Part shown: piece by piece, positions 7,654 through 60,698 of the stretch | Layout of the letters: every line of letters starts with the position of its first letter | How positions within the stretch are numbered: position 1 is the first letter of the stretch | From: a methanogenic archaeon ISO4-H5 | GTDB taxonomy: Archaea > Thermoplasmatota > Thermoplasmata > Methanomassiliicoccales > Methanomethylophilaceae | NCBI GenBank assembly: GCA_001560915.1 | Contig: CP014214.1 | Location: 1,364,001 to 1,428,000, forward strand | DNA: 64,000 bases | Direction: 5' to 3' | Program-made: the position numbers and the translations under genes | The notes under the pieces: model-generated | Databases searched by the model: none | What the model saw: the letters and a program-made list of their open reading frames with translations, nothing else | What the model was told of the DNA's origin: nothing

Positions 7654-8145
7654 TCACTTACGTTCGATAGGCTTCAGGGTCACACCGGTCTGTCCCTGGT
7701 AATGTCCGCTCCTCTTGGCATAACTCTTCTCGGAGTCGGAGGTCATGGTCTGGAACACCAGCTGACAGTACCTCTCCCCGATAGGGATTTCCAGCTCGCT
7801 GTCGGAGCTGTTGTAGGAACCGAGTGTCAGAGTACCTTCGAAACCGGCATCCACTATACCGAAAGCGGCGATGGTGCCCTTCCTGATCCAGGAGGTCCTG
7901 AGCCACAGATTGCCGCAGACATCGTCGCCCATCCTGACCCTCTCGATGGTGGATACGAAAAACATGGTCTTCGGGGGAATCTTCACGACCTTCTCATCAG
8001 CACCGTGAACTACACCGTTCACCGAGATCTCTGCCACCCTGAGGTCGTAACCGTTGGGGGTGAGGCTCTTCTCATTGTAATCCGTGATGCCGATGCGTCC
8101 GCTCTCCATCCCCGCGAGGATGTCTCTGTCCGACAGTACTGCCAT
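7654..8145 (-). CDS. dcd: dCTP deaminase / dUTPase family protein
   Basis: A 163-residue trimeric nucleotide-pyrophosphatase-fold enzyme that supplies dUMP precursor or clears dUTP. The family signature is complete: N-terminal LTPNGYDLRV, WLRTSWIRKGT, and AFGIVDAGFEGTLTLG with the C-terminal GHYQGQTGV nucleotide-binding tail. Length fits archaeal Dcd; whether it is the bifunctional DCD-DUT form cannot be decided by eye. It lies 33 bases downstream of the end of... the neighbouring nitrogenase-like gene start is at 9456, and both point leftward, so it may be the last gene of that transcription unit. Confidence 0.88.
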   Translation of the reverse strand: MAVLSDRDILAGMESGRIGITDYNEKSLTPNGYDLRVAEISVNGVVHGADEKVVKIPPKTMFFVSTIERVRMGDDVCGNLWLRTSWIRKGTIAAFGIVDAGFEGTLTLGSYNSSDSELEIPIGERYCQLVFQTMTSDSEKSYAKRSGHYQGQTGVTLKPIERK

Positions 8146-8178: not shown

Positions 8179-9456
8179 TCAGATGAACCTCTGCCTCGAG
8201 GCGATGATGTTCAGCACCGAATCGAGCAGACGCAGGGTCCCTCCGAGACCTATCGGCGGTTCCGGACGCACATTGACGTATTTCGTCCCGGGCGCTTCAA
8301 TCTCGGCATATCCCTTCACCAATCCGCGGGAAAGACAGGAGATCCCGAGGGTTCCGCTGGTGAGGATGATCTCCGCGTCGGTGTGAAGAGCATCTTTCGA
8401 AAAGGGGATGCCGTGCGAGGAGACGAACTCCTCCGTCCGTTTCTCCCACTCCTCCGCGCCGGAACACGTGACCGCCACGGGCACCATACCCAGATATCCG
8501 TAGAGGAACTCCACGGCAGCATATGCCAGTGAACCGTCGCACAGCACCGAGAAGGTATGTCCCTTGGGCAGCAGATGGAATGATTCCATCAGGGCTACCG
8601 AACGGGCGGCGGTCCTGCGGCCCTCCTTTATCTTCGCAAGGGCAGGAGACGGGTCGCAGCCCAATGCCGAACAAACGGACTTCACCCACTTCTCCAGGTT
8701 GGCGAAACCGAGGGGAACCCCCTCGTTCACGAAAGGAATGCCGTATTCGTCGCGGTAGAATGCCGCCACCCTGTCCCCGTACTCGGGGTAGATGAGAACG
8801 TTCAGTTCCGCACCCGCAGAGTTCCTGATATCATCGGCGGACCATCCGGCGCCCACCGTGCATCTGACCTCGATACCGCATAGACCCAGCAGTCCTTTCA
8901 GGTCCTCGATCGTGTCCTCCCAGTTGAGGTGCAGGATGCTTATCCCGAGCAGGTTCACACCCTTCTTCCCATCGGTCTTCTCCGGCCTCACGGTCCCGAG
9001 GATCTCCAGGATCCCGTCCTGGAATCCGTCGGAGCAGGTCCCGGAGTACTCAGCATGGTCGACCCTCACGGTAGGTATGTCCCCCGACACGGCCTGCAGG
9101 TTCTCCCCGATGAGCGAAGCTCCCGGTGAATTGATGACCGAGATCACCGAAGGATGAAGGGATTCCGCCTTGGAATACAGGTCCTTCAGCCTCTCGGTGG
9201 CACCGGTGACGAACCTCCCCATATCGAGATAGGTGCAGGGCAGGCGGGGCTGGCTGAAAAAGTACCTGCTGGCATATTGGAATATGTTCCTGGCCCGGGG
9301 CGTCCCGTCCCTCTCCGGGAATACGGATTCCGAGACCGAGGCGGGATAGTACTTGCAGCCCGTGGGCCCGTGTATAATCGTGAATCCGTCGGATACCCCT
9401 TCCAGGGCCATCAGCATACCCAGGAAGCTGTCCGGACGTTCGTACTCAAGCGACAT
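8179..9456 (-). CDS. Nitrogenase component 1-like (NifK/NifE-type) subunit
   Basis: A 425-residue protein of the nitrogenase/oxidoreductase component 1 family. Recognisable are the N-terminal glycine-cysteine motif (IIHGPTGCKYYP), the VISVINSPGASLIGENL strand where NifD/K proteins carry the next cluster ligand (here no cysteine), and the family's three-domain Rossmann layout, with late VEFLYGYLGMVPVAV and ILTSGTLGISC. Only one of the usual P-cluster cysteines is present, as in NifK-like partners that share a simpler cluster. It starts 11 bases inside the end of the NifH-NifD fusion gene, so the two are translationally coupled and probably form one complex. True nitrogenase is unlikely because no NifB/E/N genes are near; a tetrapyrrole or other small-molecule reductase like CfbD/BchNB is an inference. 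Confidence 0.75.
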   Translation of the reverse strand: MSLEYERPDSFLGMLMALEGVSDGFTIIHGPTGCKYYPASVSESVFPERDGTPRARNIFQYASRYFFSQPRLPCTYLDMGRFVTGATERLKDLYSKAESLHPSVISVINSPGASLIGENLQAVSGDIPTVRVDHAEYSGTCSDGFQDGILEILGTVRPEKTDGKKGVNLLGISILHLNWEDTIEDLKGLLGLCGIEVRCTVGAGWSADDIRNSAGAELNVLIYPEYGDRVAAFYRDEYGIPFVNEGVPLGFANLEKWVKSVCSALGCDPSPALAKIKEGRRTAARSVALMESFHLLPKGHTFSVLCDGSLAYAAVEFLYGYLGMVPVAVTCSGAEEWEKRTEEFVSSHGIPFSKDALHTDAEIILTSGTLGISCLSRGLVKGYAEIEAPGTKYVNVRPEPPIGLGGTLRLLDSVLNIIASRQRFI

Positions 9457-11608
9457 CTTCTCTCCAACCCTCCTTCTTAGGGGCCAGGGTGCCCCTGATC
9501 CAATCCTCCGCCAGGGCCCTTCCCGCGAAAGGATCCGTCACCGTGACGTACGGGAGACGGCACTGGTAGATCTCCGGCGATACCGCCACCGAAGCGGGTA
9601 TCAGCAGTATATCCGGCTTGAGGGAATCTATCTCCCTCAATACATCTGGCACATCCTTCTCGGCAATGACCGTGAAGGCCTTATCAAGATAATCGGAGGT
9701 AAGGTTGGAACTGTAATCGGAACGCTTCAGCAGGTATGCACGCTGCATGTCCATCCCCACCAATTCCACCGCTTCCCGTATCCAGGAAACATCGTTGCCG
9801 ATGGTCAGGATGCAGCATTTCTTACCGGCCAACAGCCTGCGCGGACCTTCCATGAGGCTGCGGTACTGCTTCTCAATCGATGCCAGCAGTACCTCGGCCT
9901 CTTTCTGCTTACCAAAATACTCTGCCACGCAGCCTATCCATCCCGCGACACCGACCAGACCTCCGCGCACCGGCTGTTCCAACGAGGGTATGCCGAACTC
10001 ATCCTCCAGGTACATGCACATCTTCTCGGTGAAGAGATCGGGATTGAGCTTCAGGTTGGCAGCGGCCTCGGGGATCCTGCCGAGCTCCTCCACGGTGCTG
10101 AACCCGGGGAGGATGCAGTTGACTTCCACACCCAGTTGGCCGAGATAATCCCTGACCTGCTACAGTTCGGAACAGGCGCTGCTGGCCATGGTCTTCACGC
10201 CGACCAGGTTGACCGTCATCGGCCTCGTATCGCCTTTGGAAGCGAAACGCTCTATGAGGCCTATGCCTGCATCCAGGGTGCCCTGCATGAAATCCCCGGT
10301 GGCGTTGCCGTCCTCCTCCAGGACCGCTATCTTCACGCCGGGATGCTCCTTCTCGACGGCGGCAGCCACTCCTCTGGGATCATCCCCGATTATCCCCGGG
10401 GGACAGGCGGTGATCACGGCGAAATCCCTCTTCCCGAGGGAGATCTGCTCCTCCAGCTTTCTGCGGAGGAGGTCGTTGCCGCCGAAGACCATGGTTCCCT
10501 CGCCCATATCCGTGCATATGACATCGGGATCCCCGAAGGTCTCCGACGTACTGTATCCCCTTGTGTACGCACCCTTCACGCTCTTGGAATCCAGCTGTAC
10601 GGTGAGCTGTGCACAGCTCCTCGGAGAATGAAGTATTGTGGTAAGCCCCTTCACCGAGGTACATACAGAAGATGCCCCGGAGAAGGCACAGCCGTGGATG
10701 GGTTCGTCGTAAGCAGTATTCTTAGAAGTGTAGGGACGGAATTCGGTACCGGTGACGTTCAGTTCCCGGTGCACCGGTTTCTCCTTCTTGGCGGTCTCCC
10801 TGCCCAGGATCAGCTTCTCCAGTTCGTTCTCCGAAAGGAACCGGGCATGGTACCTCTTCCCCTCGATGACGGCATGTGCCAGATCCCTGAACGTCCCGGC
10901 GATTTCGGAGTCCGGGAAGGCCCCTATGACAGTGACCCCGCGCTGTTCCGCATCCATGAATACGGAAGAACGGGGGATCCTCGCTACGATGGGTATGCCC
11001 ACCGCTTCCGAGAACCTCTCCACGCGGGCCTCCTCCTCCGGGTCGCCGCGGCTGTTGAATATGATTCCCCCGATCCTGTCGGGATTGTAATTGGCCGTTC
11101 CCCTCAGGATGTTGTTGGCCGCATAGATGGCCATGAACTCGCCGGAGGTGACGATGTACACGGTATCCGCATAATCGTTGCGGAGCGGGACGGCGAAACC
11201 TCCGCACACCACATCGCCCAGTACGTCGTAGAGGGTGATGTCCGAATCCACCTGGCCCGAACCGAGCCTCTCGAGCAGGTCGAAGGCGGTGATGATACCT
11301 CTGCCTGCGCATCCGACCCCGGGTTCGGGGCCTCCGGCTTCCACGCAGAGGCAACCTTTGTAACCCCGTGAGACCACGTCCTCCAGCTTCCTGTCCTCGG
11401 GTTTCACTTCCTTGAGATAGTCGAGAACGGTGTTCTGTACGGCGCCTCCGATGAGACCTCTGGTCGAATCGTGCTTGGGATCGCAGCCGATCTGCAGGAC
11501 CCTGATGCCCATGTCAGAAAGGGCAGCGGTGAGATTGGATGAAACTGTAGATTTACCGATTCCGCCTTTTCCGTAGATTGCGATTTTTCTCCTTGCGGAG
11601 CCACTCAT
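9446..11608 (-). CDS. NifH-NifD fusion with in-frame TAG (apparent pyrrolysine 483)
   Basis: Read through one TAG at 10160-10162, this is a 720-residue protein. Residues 1-270 are a complete NifH-type reductase: Walker loop GKGGIGKST (13-21), cluster cysteines C100 (GVGCAGRG) and C135 (DVVCGGF), and the switch region GCDPKHDST. Residues 300-720 are a NifD-type domain with three cysteines at P-cluster-like positions: C307 (IHGCAFSGA), C332 (SPRSCAQL) and C402 (ITACPPGIIGDD). The TAG falls after SSACSEL; the frame continues at once with QVRDYLGQLGVEVN, a normal NifD helix-strand, so the domain is intact only if TAG is read. Pyl genes lie in this window and no gene here ends in TAG, so pyrrolysine insertion is the simplest reading; a nonsense mutation is the alternative. 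ATG 11608 begins the NifH fold. Confidence 0.72.
10160..10162 (-). other. Internal TAG codon, apparent pyrrolysine, in the NifH-NifD fusion
   Basis: Codon 483 of the fusion. The flanking codons translate as ACSEL before and QVRDY after, in one frame, with no other stop until 9446. A split gene would have to restart at a GTG (10129) inside the NifD fold. Confidence 0.65.
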
Positions 11609-48763: not shown

Positions 48764-49585
48764 TCACTTTCTGCAGCCTAGGTAGGAGTAGTAAGCACTC
48801 TCCATGGCCATGGCGGCGACACCGATTGCAAGGGGATCGTGGATGATGAGGGCCTTCTTCTTGGCCTCCTCATCGAAGGTGTGGGGCACACCGGGCGAGG
48901 AAATGATCGCTCCTTCCTGGATGTCCTCGGTCTCTATGTGTGCGGGAGAGGCGTTCAGGATGTACTTGTGGGCACGGATGGCCTCGCGTACGTTCTCTGC
49001 AACCTTGACACGGGGGTTGGCCTTCTGAACGGCATACGCCTTGTCGAGGTCAATGTCGGTGATGGTGACGTTGGCGCTCTTGGCCACCAGCAGCCTTGCC
49101 ATCTCGCTGCCGACCCTGCCGGCTCCGACGATGAGGACGTCCTTTCCGATCAGCATGTCGGATGCGGCGGAAAGTGCGGCGATGTAGGCCTTGGCGGTGC
49201 TGAAGGTGTTGTTGGATGCCTTCTTGGCCTCGATGTTGTAAGCGAGGAACTCCACGTCGTCGGCCATGAATATGATGTTGGGCTTCTGCTCGAGTGCCTC
49301 CTTGAATCCGCTGATGTCGGTCTTCTTGGTGACGAATGCCTCGAATCCCAGCCATTTGCAGATGTCCCTCACGGACTCCGAAAAGTTGGAGATGATTCCC
49401 TCTCCGGTGGTGACTGGCACAACCGCGCAGGTGTACTCCTTGGTATCGATCGCATACTCCCACATGCCGACTGCCTCACAGGCCAGTTTCTTAAGGGTCC
49501 TGCCGGTGTTCTTCACGAGGAAATCTTCGAGTGCTCCGAGGTTCTCGGAGAGATCTTTGACATCGTTGTTTGTTAGTCTGGTCAT
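48764..49585 (-). CDS. pylD: Pyrrolysine biosynthesis protein PylD
   Basis: 273 residues. PylD oxidises 3R-methyl-D-ornithyl-N6-lysine and closes the ring to give pyrrolysine, using NAD. The Rossmann part has DVLIVGAGRVGSEMARLL; the N-terminal helical part starts RLTNNDVKDLSENLGALED. The C-terminal SSPGVPHTFDEEAKKKALII and EHDPLA-like IIHDPLAIGVAAMAME segments are typical. Its ATG directly abuts the pylC stop. It is the last gene of the pylSBCD operon. Confidence 0.95.
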   Translation of the reverse strand: MTRLTNNDVKDLSENLGALEDFLVKNTGRTLKKLACEAVGMWEYAIDTKEYTCAVVPVTTGEGIISNFSESVRDICKWLGFEAFVTKKTDISGFKEALEQKPNIIFMADDVEFLAYNIEAKKASNNTFSTAKAYIAALSAASDMLIGKDVLIVGAGRVGSEMARLLVAKSANVTITDIDLDKAYAVQKANPRVKVAENVREAIRAHKYILNASPAHIETEDIQEGAIISSPGVPHTFDEEAKKKALIIHDPLAIGVAAMAMESAYYSYLGCRK

Positions 49586-50746
49586 TCATATCATATCCGG
49601 TGATTTGTCCACGAACTCCTCGAGTTCGAGATTTTCCATTATACTGGTGATAAACTGTTTCTTCTTGTGGACCACGTCCTGGTAGGAGTCGCCGTGGTTG
49701 ATTACGGTGAATCTGCACTCGTAGGTACCGCTGCGGTAATCGGTTATGACCTCGTCGGCACCCATGAAGTCCTCCAGGTACATGGGGTTCTGAACGTGAC
49801 TGAACTCTTTCTCACCGCAGGTCGACAGGGTCGTTCCGCGGACGATGAAATGCTCATAGCTGGCATATCCCTTTCTGGGGACCTTGCCGGTCTCCTTCCC
49901 GAGCTTGGAACAGACCAGCTCCTCCAGAAGATTGATGCCGGTGGCGGCGCAGATGCAGGCAGGGGTCTGACTGGGAATCCTGGCGTCGATCTCCAGTACC
50001 CTGAGCCCTTTCTTGGTGAAGATGGCCTCCACATCCATGAGGGCGTTCAGTCCCAGACCCTCTCCGAGCTCCTTTCCGATCTTTATGAACTGCTCCTCGT
50101 CGGCCTCGGGCAGGACACGGGGTTCGCAGATGATCTGCTTGCAGTCGTAATTGGAATCGAGGACCACCTCGGTAGTCACGTAGGCCTTGGCGGTACTGCC
50201 GTTGCCGATGACCTCTATGGATACGCTCTTCCCCGAGACGAACTCCTGCTGGATGGGAGTATCGCCGAGTTTCTCGATGACCTTGAGCGCCCTCTGCCTC
50301 TCCTCCTCGTTGTTGACCGCGCTGACACCGATACTGCCGCTCTGACAGGACGGTTTCACGATGATTGGGAATCCGCACTCCGGCCAAGGCTGGGGGATGG
50401 GAGTGCCGATGCGCGCCATCAGCTCGTTGGACTTCTCCTTGGAGCAGGAGATCTTGTAGGATTCCATGTCGAACAGGAGAGGGGTACCGCATTCCGGGAC
50501 GGTCTTGCTCAGGAACTCGAGGACCTCCAGGTTCTCCACGGCGGGGATGACCGCATCGCATTCGGAGAAGAGTGCTTTGGCCCTCTCGGGTTCCTGGAGG
50601 ATATCGCACACTTCGGCCCGGTCCGCGAGGGAGAGGGCGGGAGCATCCTTCCTCTTGTCGATGACCATAGAGGTGTATCCCGCATGCTTGCATAGGTAAA
50701 CTGCCTCCATACCCTGAAGGATGCCTCCGACGATTCCTATCAGCAT
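49586..50746 (-). CDS. pylC: Pyrrolysine biosynthesis ligase PylC
   Basis: 386 residues, ATP-grasp fold. PylC joins 3R-methyl-D-ornithine to the epsilon-amine of lysine. The N-terminal strand LIGIVGGILQGMEAVYLCKH, ATP-binding IIVKPSCQSGSIGVSAVN and RVLEIDARIPSQTP metal site are family motifs. It overlaps the pylB end by seven bases. Confidence 0.95.
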   Translation of the reverse strand: MLIGIVGGILQGMEAVYLCKHAGYTSMVIDKRKDAPALSLADRAEVCDILQEPERAKALFSECDAVIPAVENLEVLEFLSKTVPECGTPLLFDMESYKISCSKEKSNELMARIGTPIPQPWPECGFPIIVKPSCQSGSIGVSAVNNEEERQRALKVIEKLGDTPIQQEFVSGKSVSIEVIGNGSTAKAYVTTEVVLDSNYDCKQIICEPRVLPEADEEQFIKIGKELGEGLGLNALMDVEAIFTKKGLRVLEIDARIPSQTPACICAATGINLLEELVCSKLGKETGKVPRKGYASYEHFIVRGTTLSTCGEKEFSHVQNPMYLEDFMGADEVITDYRSGTYECRFTVINHGDSYQDVVHKKKQFITSIMENLELEEFVDKSPDMI

Positions 50747-51804
50747 CTGAGGGTCGCCTCCGGGCGGTGTGACTCATAATAGTCCCAGAACTCCTTCATG
50801 GTGGCCTCGCGGCGGCCGAGGCTCTCCGCCAGGTTCCTCACGTAATCGATGGAACGGTGGCCGTCATTAATGTTGAACTCGGGCTGCGCCACTCCTGCGA
50901 GTCCAATGTCGGGAGGCACGATGGAGGTGATGACGCTGGCACCAGCCGCGACCCTGCTCTTGAGTCCGGCGGTTCCTTCCACGTCGAGACTGGCGGGAAT
51001 GAGAGCGTCTGGGTATGCGAGCCTCATGACGGCTATGGCCTTCAGCTCGTCGGTGTAATCCACAGGCGGGGCGATGTTCTGCAGAGGGGTTCCCTTCTGG
51101 GGGATGAAGGTCATGGCGCGGATCTGATTGCACTTCATGTCGCCCATAATCTTGATGTGTTCGGCACGGTCCCTGGGGGTGTCGCCGATGCCGACCAGCA
51201 TACCGTCCTCGGTGAGCATGCCCGCTTCCCTGGCCCAGACCCTCTGGTTCATACGGAAGTCGTAATCCTGCTTGAGCCTCATCTTCGCGAAGAGGTCCCT
51301 GTTGCAGGTCTCCTGGTAAACGGCAAGTATGTCCCCTCCGGCTGCCCTCAGGCGGGGCATGGTCTCCTTGGAGACCGCTCCGGGAGAGACCATGATTCCG
51401 GTATCGACGGTGTCCCTGACACTCTTGACGATATCCACGATTCCTTTGTAATCGTCGGCATAGAGTTTGGGGTCCTCGCCCATGGTGAGGTCCACCAGAT
51501 TGATGCCGGCTTTCTCGAGCCCGGCGGAGATCTCCAGGACCTCCTCCTTATTCTTCCTGTAGCGCTCGATCTCGTTGGTCCGGCGGTAATAGCAGAATGC
51601 GCACTCGTTCTTGCAGTAGGTCGAGAAGTACACGAAGCCGTACATGAAGATCTTGTTGCCGAACTCCCTGTCCCTGACGCGGGAGGCTGCCTGATAGAGT
51701 GCATTATTGAAGTCTGGGTCATTGTAAGAAAGGACTGCTTCCATCTCGTCGACGGTAGGCTTCTGTCCATCTTCCCAGGTCTTGATAGTATCGTATAGAT
51801 CCAT
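50740..51804 (-). CDS. pylB: Methylornithine synthase PylB (radical SAM)
   Basis: 354 residues. PylB isomerises L-lysine to 3R-methyl-D-ornithine. The radical-SAM motif is YCKNECAFCYYRR; downstream are GEDPKLYADDYKGI, QETCNRDLF and SLDVEGTAGLKSRV. ATG 51804 is preferred to the GTG at 51807. It starts nine bases after the pylS stop. Confidence 0.95.
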   Translation of the reverse strand: MDLYDTIKTWEDGQKPTVDEMEAVLSYNDPDFNNALYQAASRVRDREFGNKIFMYGFVYFSTYCKNECAFCYYRRTNEIERYRKNKEEVLEISAGLEKAGINLVDLTMGEDPKLYADDYKGIVDIVKSVRDTVDTGIMVSPGAVSKETMPRLRAAGGDILAVYQETCNRDLFAKMRLKQDYDFRMNQRVWAREAGMLTEDGMLVGIGDTPRDRAEHIKIMGDMKCNQIRAMTFIPQKGTPLQNIAPPVDYTDELKAIAVMRLAYPDALIPASLDVEGTAGLKSRVAAGASVITSIVPPDIGLAGVAQPEFNINDGHRSIDYVRNLAESLGRREATMKEFWDYYESHRPEATLRC

Positions 51805-51813
51805 CACGATACC

Positions 51814-52638
51814 TCAGTTAATCTTGTACCCGTTGAGGTAGTTGACGGACTTCCCGGTCTTCTTCACGCTTCCGTCGCCGTCCCTCATCATGATGAGACG
51901 TTCCAGACCGAAACCTGCTCCGCACCAGGGCTCGTTGATATTGTGGGCCTTGTCGAGGTAGTGGGGTCCGACGGCGGCAGAACAGACTTCTTCACCGTCA
52001 ACCTCCACGTCGATGGTCTCCTTGTAGACATCGGATTCCTCGTGGACCAGTTCGTAATCCAGTCCGATGGTCTTCATGACGATGTCGATGTAATGCTTGA
52101 TCTTCTCGGTGGTATCGCCCTGGGGACCCATGTCCACGAGGTTCAGCATGGTGAACTCCTCGAGGTGGTCGTTGCTGTGGGACTCGGCCCTGAAACAGGA
52201 ACCGATCTCGAAGAACTTGACGGGACCGTCGGTGTGTCCCCTCAGTTCCCTCATGATGTTGTAGAGATTGATGGCATGCATAGGGCGGAGACAGCGCTTA
52301 TCATCGACCCAGAACACCTGCTGGTACAGAGGGTGGTTCTCGTCGATGGTCATCTTGGCCAGCTCGGCCTTGGAGATGAGGATGGGTGTCTTGACCTCGA
52401 TGAATCCTTCCTTGATGAGCGCCTCGGACAGCTGAAGTTCGAGTTCCATCAGGCGGTGGTGGCGGGGATTGGCGATCATGTCGCGGATGCCCTTCTCGTT
52501 CTCCCTCTGGAGCTTGGACATCATCTTGGTGAAGGCCTTGTCGCGCTCTTCTTCAGTCTCGAATTCGCTCTCGTTCTTCGGCTCGTGGCCGTACTCTCTC
52601 AGACGCTGGATTTGCGGGTCCGTCAGTTTGCATGTCAT
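51814..52638 (-). CDS. pylS: Pyrrolysyl-tRNA synthetase, catalytic domain only
   Basis: 274 residues, the class II core without the PylSn tRNA-binding domain found in Methanosarcina; no pylSn gene is seen nearby. It charges tRNA-Pyl with pyrrolysine. Motif 2 region FEIGSCFRAESHSNDHLEEF, FTMLNLVDMGP (N and V of the binding pocket), ESDVYKETIDVE (the mobile tyrosine) and GAGFGLERLIM (motif 3) are in place. The pocket helix reads RPMHAINLYNIMREL, where Methanosarcina enzymes have LAP; see findings. It is the first protein gene of the pylSBCD operon, 37 bases after tRNA-Pyl. Confidence 0.96.
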   Translation of the reverse strand: MTCKLTDPQIQRLREYGHEPKNESEFETEEERDKAFTKMMSKLQRENEKGIRDMIANPRHHRLMELELQLSEALIKEGFIEVKTPILISKAELAKMTIDENHPLYQQVFWVDDKRCLRPMHAINLYNIMRELRGHTDGPVKFFEIGSCFRAESHSNDHLEEFTMLNLVDMGPQGDTTEKIKHYIDIVMKTIGLDYELVHEESDVYKETIDVEVDGEEVCSAAVGPHYLDKAHNINEPWCGAGFGLERLIMMRDGDGSVKKTGKSVNYLNGYKIN

Positions 52639-52675: not shown

Positions 52676-52746
52676 TGGCGAGAGGCCGGGGCGTCGAACC
52701 CCGCTGGCTAGGTTTTAGAGACCCGCTGATCGCCGGATCGCCCCCC
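52676..52746 (-). tRNA. pylT: tRNA-Pyl (anticodon CUA)
   Basis: 71 nucleotides with CCA encoded. On the minus strand: acceptor GGGGGGC pairs with GCCUCUC; no base separates acceptor and D-stem; D-arm GAUC-CGGC-GAUC with a four-base loop; anticodon loop CUCUAAA; T-arm GCGGGGUUCGACGCCCC-like. The discriminator is G. A short D-loop and missing connecting base are the marks of tRNA-Pyl from this order. It is placed 37 bases before pylS and probably shares its transcript. Confidence 0.95.
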
Positions 52747-53005: not shown

Positions 53006-54385
53006 TCAGAAATCCATGCCGCACAGGGAGATCGTGTGCATGGCGTTCTCGTAGATGTCGAGATACTCCTGAGAGGGCCTGAGGGTATCCAGGTCATAAC
53101 ACTCCTGGAACTTCTTACCCATGGGTGCGCTGTGATAGTTCAGCTCATACCTGTGCAGGATGCTGTCTACGATACTGTTGGCAGCCTCGATGCTCATACC
53201 GCATGCTGCGGAGGATGCTTCTCCGAGCATCCTTGCCTCGAGTCCGGTGGCCCGGTCCTGCAGAACACCTTTGCCAGGTGCCACACCGGAAAGGAGTTCC
53301 CTTCCGGAGACGGTGTCGACGATGGCTTGTGCCGCCACTTCGAGAAGACACATCTCGGTGCAGGGACCTGCAATCGTATAGTACTGGTTGGCGAGAAGTA
53401 CATCGGTATTGGTGTCCAATGCACGGGCTGCGTGAGCGGCAACCTGGAGACACTCCCTGTTGGAAGTGTTGCCCCACCTGATGTGTACGGGTCCGTCGAG
53501 ATGGATATCGCAATTGAAGAGCACGAAAGAAGCCAAGGTGGCAGCCACATCGCAGATGGCGGTCTCCTCGACGCTGCTGACATATCCTCCCATGATGGGC
53601 ATCTGCTCGATCATGATGGTATCTCCGGAAAGATGCCATCCCGCAATCATGTTCATGAACGAGGAATTCACCTTGAGCTCGTTCATCTGGGAACATTCGT
53701 GGCAGTCACAGCTGCGAAGTCCGTTGTTAACCATGCTGGCGGACATGCGTCCCACAGCAGACAGGGGAGTCTCGGGGCCCTAAATACCCATACCGGGGCG
53801 TCCGGCCATGCTGACCGCTTCGCGGATATGCCTGATCTCGGACATGGTAGCCTTGATCTCCCAGGGACTGTCGGTGACAACCGAACGTCCGTTGATGGTG
53901 TTGATAACACCTGACACTATACCGTCGACCATCGGTTCCTGGGCATAGGTGGAGATTACTTTTTCGAAAATGTTCTCGCTGATGGGGGCACCCGTGGGTC
54001 CTCCCTCTACAATGGGTTTCCTGAATGAATTGCCCCTGCGGGGCTTGAGTGTGCATTTATCCTTGCCGGTACCGAGGGTCAGCTTCTTAGGCGCCATCTT
54101 GAGACCCTGATAGATCTCCTCTTCCTCGAGAGAAAGCGCCTTTCCGAGGTCGTTGCAGTAGATGCCGCAGCTGAGAAGCATATCCATGCCGGCCATAAAG
54201 AGCCTGTCGCACATCTCGTCATCGGTGGGGATAATCTCGTGCCCGAAGAACAGGTCGTAACTCTCTTTGAGCATCTTGGCCCTGCGGGGAATGATCTCGT
54301 AATCCCACTGCTGCTCGGTAACCCTCTTTCCATTGGCGAAGCGATCGTAGGCTTCGAAAACATCGACGAATCTGCTTACTGCCAT
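53006..54385 (-). CDS. mtmB: Monomethylamine methyltransferase MtmB, copy 1 (in-frame TAG)
   Basis: 459 residues read through TAG at 53780-53782, which is codon 202, the known pyrrolysine position of MtmB. MtmB moves the methyl of monomethylamine to the corrinoid of MtmC. The peptide before TAG ends AGRPGMGI and continues GPETPLSAVG, as in the family; later ECSQMNELKV, DTIMIEQMPIMGGY, LDGPVHIRWGN and AGPCTEMCLLE. The first half is somewhat more diverged from the family than copy 2 (for example the N-terminal VSRFVDVFEAYDRF). Own promoter region 54386-54490 follows mtmB2's terminator. Confidence 0.94.
53780..53782 (-). other. Pyrrolysine codon of mtmB copy 1
   Basis: TAG codon 202, between GMGI and GPET. 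Confidence 0.95.
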
Positions 54386-54549: not shown

Positions 54550-55938
54550 TCAGTGTTTGATGTCGAGACCGCAGTCCCTGATGGTCTGGAGAGCCTTGTC
54601 GTAGACCTCGAGGTACTCCTTGGTGGGCTTGACGGTGGTAACGTCGTAGCACTCCTGGAAGGTCTTTCCGATGTCCTGGTTCTGGTAGGTAGGCTCGTAG
54701 ATCTTGTACAGGTTGGCGATGGTCTCGTTCATGTCGGACACTTTCTGTCCAGCGGCGCAGCGGGCAGCCTCTCCCATGACACGGGCCTCCATTCCGGTGA
54801 ACCTGTCAAGGATAACTCCCTTTGCAGCTGCGGATCCGGAGAGAAGCTCCCTTCCGGAGACGGTATCACAGATTGCCTGGGTTGCGGTCTCGAGGAGACA
54901 CATCTCAGTGCAGGGTCCTGCCATGGGGTAGTACTGGTTAGCGATGAGCAGATCGGTGTTGTTGTCGATAGCTGCTGCAGCGTGTCCAGCGACCTGGAGG
55001 GTCTCTTTTGCGGTGGTGACTCCCCACCTGATGTGGATAGGTCCGTCAAGGTGGAAGTTTCCGCTGAAGAGAGCGAAGGATGCAAGGGTGGTTGCGACAT
55101 CGGAGATTGCGGTCTCCTCGACTCCACCGGTGTATCCACCGAAGATAGGCATCTGCTCGATCATGATGGTGTCGCCGGATACGGTCCAGCCTGCGAGCAT
55201 GTTGAGTCCGCAGAGATCCATCTTGAGTTCGTTGAGCTGAGAGCACTCGTGTGCGTCGGTGATCCTGTGTCCAGCGTTGGGACAGTCAGCGACAAGCCTT
55301 CCTCCGACGGTCAGAGGAGTCTCGGGTCCCTAGACACCGAGTCCGGGCCTTCCGGCACGAGTCCTTGCCTCTTTGGTCATCCTGAGCTCCTGCATGGTAG
55401 CGCGGATTTCGTAAGGGGTTCCGGATTTGGCTTTCTTTCCCTCGACAGTGTCCATAACTCCGTCGACAAGGTCATCAACGACTGCTTCCTGAGCGTAGGA
55501 CTGCATGATCTTAATGAACATCTCTTCGGATACAGGGGATCCGGTAGGTCCTCCCTGGATGATGGGCTTGACGGGACTGTTTCCGTGCCTGGGGTAGAAC
55601 CTTGCGATGTCCCTTCCCTCTCCGAGAATGAGCTTCTTGGGGGTCTTCTTGATTCCCTCCCAAATCTCCTCTTCAGTGACGTGCATGACACGGCCGAGGT
55701 CCTGACAGTAGAATCCGACGGTGGAGAGCATCTCAAGACCGGCCTGGAACAGGGCGTTCTTGGTCTCGTTGTCCTCAGGGACGGACTGTCCGGGCTCGAA
55801 TTTGAGTTTGTACTTCTCTTTGAGAGCGGTCAGGTTCTGGGGGATGATGGTGTAATCCCACTCGTTCTCGGGGACTTTCTTTCCCTTGACGAACCTCTCG
55901 TATACATCGATAACGGTAAGGGGCCTAGTTGCTGCCAT
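54550..55938 (-). CDS. mtmB: Monomethylamine methyltransferase MtmB, copy 2 (in-frame TAG)
   Basis: 462 residues read through TAG at 55330-55332 (codon 203). Family layout as in copy 1: RPLTVIDVYERFVKGKKVP at the start, AGRPGLGV-Pyl-GPETPLTVGG, then ECSQLNELKMD, IEQMPIFGGYTGGVEE and GPCTEMCLLETA. It begins 38 bases after the mtmC stop, so mtmC-mtmB2 is one unit. The TAG position is one residue later than in copy 1 because the N-terminal part is one residue longer. Confidence 0.95.
55330..55332 (-). other. Pyrrolysine codon of mtmB copy 2
   Basis: TAG codon 203, between GLGV and GPET. Confidence 0.95.
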
Positions 55939-59294: not shown

Positions 59295-60698
59295 TCAGTT
59301 CTTGAGCTGGCGCCTGAACAGTTCGCAGCTGTTGATCTTGATATCAAGCAGCTTCTCGATGTTCATCTTGGCAGCGATACCCCTGGGTGCTCCGGGGATA
59401 CCAGTGCAGCTTCCGATTCCGAGCTCCTCACGGAGGTCCCTCATGATGCACTCATCGGCAATCTCGACGGTGTCGAGTCCGAGCTTCTTTGCAACGTACT
59501 CTTTTGCCTTGTCGAGCTTCATGTTCTTTGCGTACATCATACGGGCAACAAGGTCACCAGTGGTCCTGATTCCCTGCATACCGGAGGTCATAAGGTGGGG
59601 GATGTCCATTCCGACGGGATCTCCCACTCCAACCTATACTCCATCGACTTTGGCAATCTCGACCATAGCCTTGTTACACCTGGAGACTGCATCTACAGGA
59701 GGGGTCTCCTTCATGGGGATTCCGCCGACACCCATACCGAGGTCAACGTGGACGGGTATAGGGGACTGCTCGACGGCTGCCTTGATGAAGGTGACGGACC
59801 TGGCGAGGTTCCATGCGAGGGATTTGCTGGTGTTGGTGTTGCAGACGGCTCCGAAGACGTTGGCTCCTGCCTGTGCAATGACCTTTGCCTGCTGGTGGGG
59901 GTAGAGTCCGGCGCAAACGGTGCCCTCGAACTCGATCATTCCGTGGATTCCCATGACGGACTCTCCGGCTGCACCGACGTTGATGTATGCCTCAGGGCAT
60001 GCTTTCCTCAGTGCTTTTACTCCGTTCAGAGTTCCGACGAAGTCTGCGTCTCCTGCAGATCCAGTGGTGTCGAAGTTGAATCCATCGGATCCAGCTGCCT
60101 GGATGTGGGTTCCGACGTACTCGATGTCCCTTGCGAGGTGCTCAGCGGCTGCCTCGGAGGATGCCATGGACTCGTCGATCTTGAACTCCCTCATGAGGTC
60201 TGCGGGGTTGGGGTAAGGTCCGTCAGGAGCGTAGTAAAGTCCCATGTTGGGCATTGCTCCATAGAAGTAAGGAGCAACGATGACGTCCTGGATCTCTTCC
60301 ATGGTCTGTTTCTCCATGGAGATGATGGGCTTGACAGGCTTGACAGAGTAGTCAGAGTGTGCAAGCTCGAAGGTGTCTGCTCCGAGTGCCCTCTCGTGGA
60401 GGAGAGCGGCCTCGAGCCTTCCCATGTCGACTCCGTTTCCGGAGTTTCCGTTGTCACCGGTGAAGTCAAGCTGACCGATATCGTAGGTCATGACGACCTC
60501 TTTACCGGGTGCAACTCCAACGACACGGTCCTGGCAGGTGATGATGTCGCAGATGTGCTCCATCTGGTCGTCGGTAAGGGCGGGGATGGTTGCGATGTCT
60601 GCTGCATCTGCGGTTCCGGCCTGGATGTCCGCGATGATTTCCTCTTTGGTCATCTCGATCCTGCGTCCGTCTCCGGACCTGGTGTAGTATTTAGCCAT
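59295..60698 (-). CDS. mtbB: Dimethylamine methyltransferase MtbB (in-frame TAG)
   Basis: 467 residues read through TAG at 59634-59636 (codon 355), the known pyrrolysine region of Mtb[12 protein letters not shown] before, [14 protein letters not shown] after. Other family motifs: [87 protein letters not shown], and [20 protein letters not shown] at the end. It transfers a methyl group of dimethylamine to MtbC's corrinoid. It follows mtbC by 34 bases. Confidence 0.96.
59634..59636 (-). other. Pyrrolysine codon of mtbB
   Basis: TAG codon 355, between KVDGV and VGVGD. Confidence 0.96.

Follow-up and report, generated by a model that had tools for sequence, protein, structure and literature searches.

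An in-frame amber codon in a NifH-NifD-like fusion gene of the methanogenic archaeon ISO4-H5 is likely read through as pyrrolysine and looks like a tolerated accident

In the genome of the methanogenic archaeon ISO4-H5, a gene for a NifH-NifD-like fusion protein carries an in-frame TAG that is likely read through as pyrrolysine (Pyl). In the explanation we favor, with a probability of roughly 0.8, tRNA-Pyl decodes this codon, the full fusion of 720 residues is made, and the Pyl has no specific role and is close to neutral. The amber codon itself is already known: the genome paper of 2016 counts 'a predicted nitrogenase gene (AR505_1289)' as one of the 46 amber genes it reports (PMC5011839). 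Here we describe the gene, its selection, its relatives and the place of the codon within its family.

Results

A NifH-NifD-like fusion gene with one TAG

The window analysed here is a stretch of 64,000 nucleotides, positions 1,364,001-1,428,000 of the single-contig genome (1,937,883 bp). The fusion gene and its partner occupy the following positions of the window:

9446-11608, minus strand: NifH-NifD-like fusion gene of 720 codons and a terminal TGA, the TAG taken as read through; most likely AR505_1289 (from the genome paper and gene counting)
10160-10162, minus strand: in-frame TAG, codon 483, within predicted helix 478-491 of the NifD domain
10799-11608, minus strand: NifH-like (Fe protein) domain, residues 1-270
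10694-10798, minus strand: linker between NifH and NifD, residues 271-305, of low confidence (pLDDT <50)
9449-10693, minus strand: NifD-like domain, residues 306-720, with C307, C332 and C402 present and Pro523 in place of the cofactor Cys
8179-9456, minus strand: NifK/NifD-like partner subunit, 425 aa

Translation of the minus strand gives 720 codons before the TGA, of which codon 483 is the sole TAG. Residues 7-268 match Fer4_NifH (PF00142, E 1.2e-92) in a single stretch, and residues 307-669 match Oxidored_nitro (PF00148, E 5.3e-54) in a match unbroken across the TAG. The initial annotation had proposed a 720-codon NifH-NifD frame with a single TAG, and this description holds. Annotation must read the gene through the TAG, or half of NifD is lost.

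The gene for the K partner is intact and shares its first 11 bases with the 3' end of the fusion gene, and the gene order H-D-K is kept in relatives. Together the two genes would form an operon for a nitrogenase-like reductase. The ISO4-H5 genome also holds a paralogue of the fusion gene without a TAG (G000:C1:1592576-1594723, locus L043). Directly after the K partner lies a dCTP deaminase-like gene, both in the window (7654-8145, minus strand) and at several orthologous loci, including L151 (4342-4854) and L152 (4654-5175).

TAG decoding and stop codon usage

The window also contains the genes for pyrrolysine synthesis and decoding, together with methyltransferase genes that serve as positive controls:

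51814-52638, minus strand: pylS (profile match above family cut-off)
50740-51807, minus strand: pylB (profile match above family cut-off)
49586-50746, minus strand: pylC (profile match above family cut-off)
48764-49585, minus strand: pylD (profile match above family cut-off)
52676-52746, minus strand: probable pylT (tRNA-Pyl), anticodon CTA at 52716-52718, identified by eye
53006-54385, minus strand: mtmB, TAG at 53780-53782 (codon 202), positive control
54550-55938, minus strand: second mtmB, TAG at 55330-55332, positive control
59295-60698, minus strand: mtbB, TAG at 59634-59636, positive control

The probable pylT is a tRNA-like sequence with a CTCTAAAA loop just upstream of pylS. It was recognised by neither ARAGORN nor Rfam, probably because the structure of tRNA-Pyl is aberrant in this order. 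The read-through products of the two mtmB genes and of mtbB align from end to end with PF05369 and PF09505, as expected from the earlier assignment of the other internal TAGs to these genes.

The 60 gene calls in the window end in TGA (52), TAA (4) or TAG (4). The four TAG ends are the fusion gene, the two mtmB and the mtbB, all of them in-frame interruptions; the other 56 calls end in TGA or TAA, which confirms the stop usage first described for about 60 genes. We extended the count to 344 kb (the window plus 280 kb in 14 stretches of the same genome), where 253 gene calls end in TGA (221), TAA (23) or TAG (9). After seven of these nine TAGs the frame stays open and its coding score is positive, leaving at most about two possible terminators. 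This usage agrees with the published avoidance of TAG as a terminator in this group, for example 1.6% in Ca. Methanomethylophilus alvus (PMC4153887). Two more TAG-interrupted frames with a strong downstream coding score were seen in the sampled stretches (L170:5028-5483 and L176:13806-14552).

Selection on both sides of the TAG

The nearest orthologue is 84.9% identical overall and 80% identical over the 237 codons after the TAG; the open frame past the TAG is therefore not due to chance. Relative to this orthologue, dN/dS is 0.070 in the NifH part, while within NifD it is 0.131 upstream of the TAG and 0.140 downstream, and third-position GC is 0.73 before and 0.72 after. No further lesions are found in the 237 codons. 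Relative-rate counts after the TAG are 13 for the window gene and 7 for the orthologue (p 0.26, not significant), which is compatible with a slight acceleration; the NifH part is more unbalanced (10 versus 2). The downstream part thus shows no sign of decay, and the numbers alone would also be compatible with a very recent event. Selection is equally strong on the two sides of the TAG, which makes read-through as Pyl likely.

Codon 483 in relatives

In seven orthologues of the same genus (85 to 55% identity), all uninterrupted, codon 483 is GCC, GAC, TCC, AAG, CAG, GAA or CTG, coding for A, D, S, K, Q, E and L. More distant relatives have N, K, A, R, D, E, S or T at this column, whose variability is at about the 80th percentile, and TAG is found there in no other aligned member of the family (67 to 69 aligned). 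The initial annotation had suggested looking among homologues for a conserved TAG, for a sense codon such as Glu or Lys, or for two proteins split at the site. Homologues have sense codons only, the residue differs in most orthologues with Glu and Lys among those found, and all orthologues continue across the site. The conservation of TAG among orthologues that characterizes functional Pyl proteins such as MtmB is accordingly absent here.

In an AlphaFold2 model (mean pLDDT 77.7), residue 483 lies in helix 478-491, ahead of strand 495-500, which agrees with its earlier description as a helix residue just before a strand. Along the sequence it is well separated from C307, C332 and C402, the cysteines of the cluster. 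Chain 9fmg_A is gapped at this site in the alignment. We found no PYLIS-like RNA element after the TAG (z -0.49, 56 of 200 shuffles folding at least as well); such an element is not strictly required for functional Pyl.

A structural and an accidental role had both been considered for the Pyl. The varying sense codons of the orthologues speak against the structural role and leave the accidental one: because relatives have sense codons, mostly for different residues, Pyl 483 looks, from these comparisons, like a tolerated accident with neither structural nor catalytic function.

In-frame TAGs across the fusion gene family

Family-wide searches over 102 genomes, followed by inspection of the matches, showed ten TAGs that lie in frame within H-D fusion genes of Methanomethylophilaceae. 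They fall at nine columns, equivalent to residues 270, 274 (in two genomes), 278, 386, 483, 549, 551, 557 and 584 of the fusion, and these columns tend to be the more variable ones (mean percentile 0.69, P about 0.018). Interior TGA, by comparison, occurs in only two fragmentary matches (L130 and L131). Spread over about 165 loci of some 640 codons, the ten TAGs give a rough density of one per 10,000 codons, and the 46 published amber genes in the 1.94-Mb genome imply about one per 12,000 codons genome-wide. Since the two densities are similar, the H-D fusion family is not special, and the TAG at codon 483 belongs to the genome-wide background.

The low-confidence linker between NifH and NifD contains or borders four of the ten TAGs (L028 at 270, L035 at 278, L037 and L039 both at 274); a stop at any of these would still give a complete Fe protein. 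Their placement could mean that the linker is little constrained, or it could point to a read-through switch, in which the TAG would act as a stop and release free Fe protein when Pyl is scarce, and would allow the fused enzyme to be made when Pyl is plentiful. Availability of Pyl would then follow methylamine metabolism, and the TAG at codon 483 would leave NifH and half of NifD. We regard such a switch as very improbable.

At another locus (L162, G065:C249), an in-frame TAG stands at the equivalent of W557, a position that holds Trp in 15 of the 15 sequences of alignment A1. TGG and TAG are one step apart, and this gene is possibly one in which Pyl replaces a conserved Trp, or possibly a damaged one.

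Nature of the enzyme

The P-cluster-type cysteines C307, C332 and C402 align with cysteines of VnfD and do not vary across the family alignments. The Cys ligand of the FeMo or FeV cofactor is missing, the aligned position being Pro523, and N2 fixation is therefore unlikely. The protein misses the NCBIfam cut-offs for nifH (322.8 versus 394.35) and nifD (83.3 versus 653.55), and we reject a true nitrogenase on these curated cut-offs and on the absent cofactor Cys. The cut-offs for CfbC (329 versus 402 bits) and NCBIfam BchB are missed as well. CfbCD of F430 synthesis was likewise rejected, given the missed CfbC cut-off and another NifD-like gene that resembles cfbD and adjoins a MurF-like (cfbE-like) gene in L004, both named by context and sequence reading only.

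The best PDB sequence matches of the NifD part are 9fmg, which we take to be methylthio-alkane reductase, 9d9u ('Nitrogenase') and VnfD 5n6y. A Foldseek search against the PDB returned, among the matches listed, NifH chains only and none for the NifD part. The enzyme family is found in both bacteria and archaea: H-D-K without an interior TAG occurs in many anaerobes, including Clostridium tetanomorphum, Treponema, Methanoregula and Methanosarcina sp. KYL-1, and H and D are already fused in these organisms.

Neighboring genes in relatives encode a FecCD/periplasmic-binding/ATPase transporter (L050), FecCD (L056), a DUF4430 protein (L059), and CobD/CbiB and CbiZ (L152). The second H-D/K operon of the ISO4-H5 genome (L043) is followed by a gene for a CbiX-like chelatase (L043:8056-8811; G000:C1:1596055-1596810). 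These CbiX-like, FecCD, DUF4430, CbiB and CbiZ neighbors suggest a chemistry on a tetrapyrrole or corrinoid. Judged from its sequence, the enzyme is a nitrogenase-like reductase that probably does not fix N2.

Discussion

We infer that tRNA-Pyl decodes the TAG at codon 483 to give a full-length NifH-NifD-like fusion of 720 residues, with Pyl at a variable helix site of the NifD domain and without a specific role, in an enzyme that possibly acts on a tetrapyrrole. TAG, nearly gone as a terminator, would be constantly readable in this lineage, so that a single-base change to TAG would be near neutral where the position is tolerant, and could persist; AAG, CAG or GAG would each reach TAG in one step. 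A fraction of ribosomes may stop at the codon. Read-through as Pyl is well supported because the pyl cassette is complete, TAG terminators are near absent, selection downstream is unrelaxed and the orthologues are uninterrupted, and on the same genomic grounds the proposal that residue 483 is pyrrolysine stands.

Several other explanations have to be weighed against this one. A TAG could terminate, and the TAG-free paralogue could back up a gene in which a recent nonsense mutation leaves only NifH and half of NifD, as a young pseudogene or a truncated protein. TAG is, however, almost never a terminator in this genome, the overlapping gene for the K partner is intact, and the lesion-free 237 codons evolve with dN/dS equal to that on the other side of the TAG. 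We therefore reject a pseudogene on selection and intactness and consider a recent nonsense mutation unlikely. Two separate proteins would agree with an open reading frame of 227 aa that starts after the TAG at a GTG (10129), but the cut would fall in the middle of the Oxidored_nitro domain, and since every orthologue is continuous across the site, we reject a split gene and give it an almost negligible chance.

That the TAG represents a sequencing or assembly error in a sense codon also seems a very remote prospect, even though a single assembly of the species was compared. Errors of 454 sequencing are typically homopolymer indels rather than substitutions, and the TAG would be a substitution, atypical of 454. 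Similar TAGs moreover recur in other genomes of Methanomethylophilaceae, and the genome was finished at 43.8x 454 coverage by authors who themselves called the gene amber-containing (PMC5011839).

We see an equally slim chance that Pyl 483 has a structurally or catalytically specific task in this nitrogenase-like enzyme. Pyl is catalytic in methylamine methyltransferases, and the fusion gene is intact and under purifying selection. Against this, column 483 accepts A, D, S, K, Q, E, L, N, R and others, TAG is found there in no examined orthologue, the predicted helix site is distant in sequence from the three cysteines, and bacterial and archaeal members of the family have no interior TAG.

The identity with AR505_1289 is very probable. 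The published amber genes include mtmB AR505_1327 and 1328 and mtbB AR505_1332 (PMC5011839), and counting 36 genes plus pylT from the fusion gene to the first mtmB reproduces exactly these numbers; the amber codon of the fusion gene was thus published in 2016. The main text of that paper lists AR505_1289 only, without an alignment, a site analysis, the H-D fusion or the K partner. In Ca. Methanomethylophilus alvus, 16 non-methyltransferase Pyl candidates, half of them with TAG-free homologues, were described in 2014, and the authors considered a new in-frame amber codon a stable mutation under suppression by tRNA-Pyl (PMC4153887). Those candidates are likewise scattered TAGs in ordinary genes, in another species and in other genes. 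The earlier suggestion of Pyl outside the methylamine methyltransferases is therefore supported by genomics and is no novelty (PMC5011839, PMC4153887).

Like the nitrogenase-like reductases CfbCD, BchLNB and methylthio-alkane reductase, the enzyme described here combines a NifH-like ATPase with NifD/NifK-like subunits and P-cluster-type cysteines. It differs from them in that H and D are fused and the NCBIfam cut-offs are missed. A recent study of archaea that read every TAG as pyrrolysine reportedly gives proteomic evidence for Pyl in ordinary proteins, and the case of the fusion gene would therefore be expected. The gene provides one documented case of UAG spreading into ordinary genes once it is constantly read as Pyl, and the many amber genes of this lineage are a test bed for the turning of a stop codon into a sense codon. 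In MtmB, MtbB and MttB, the TAG is conserved and the Pyl catalytic. Two mtmB and one mtbB of this kind lie in the window, and their in-frame TAG is likewise read as Pyl; unlike theirs, the TAG of the fusion gene is confined to a single genome and occupies a variable site.
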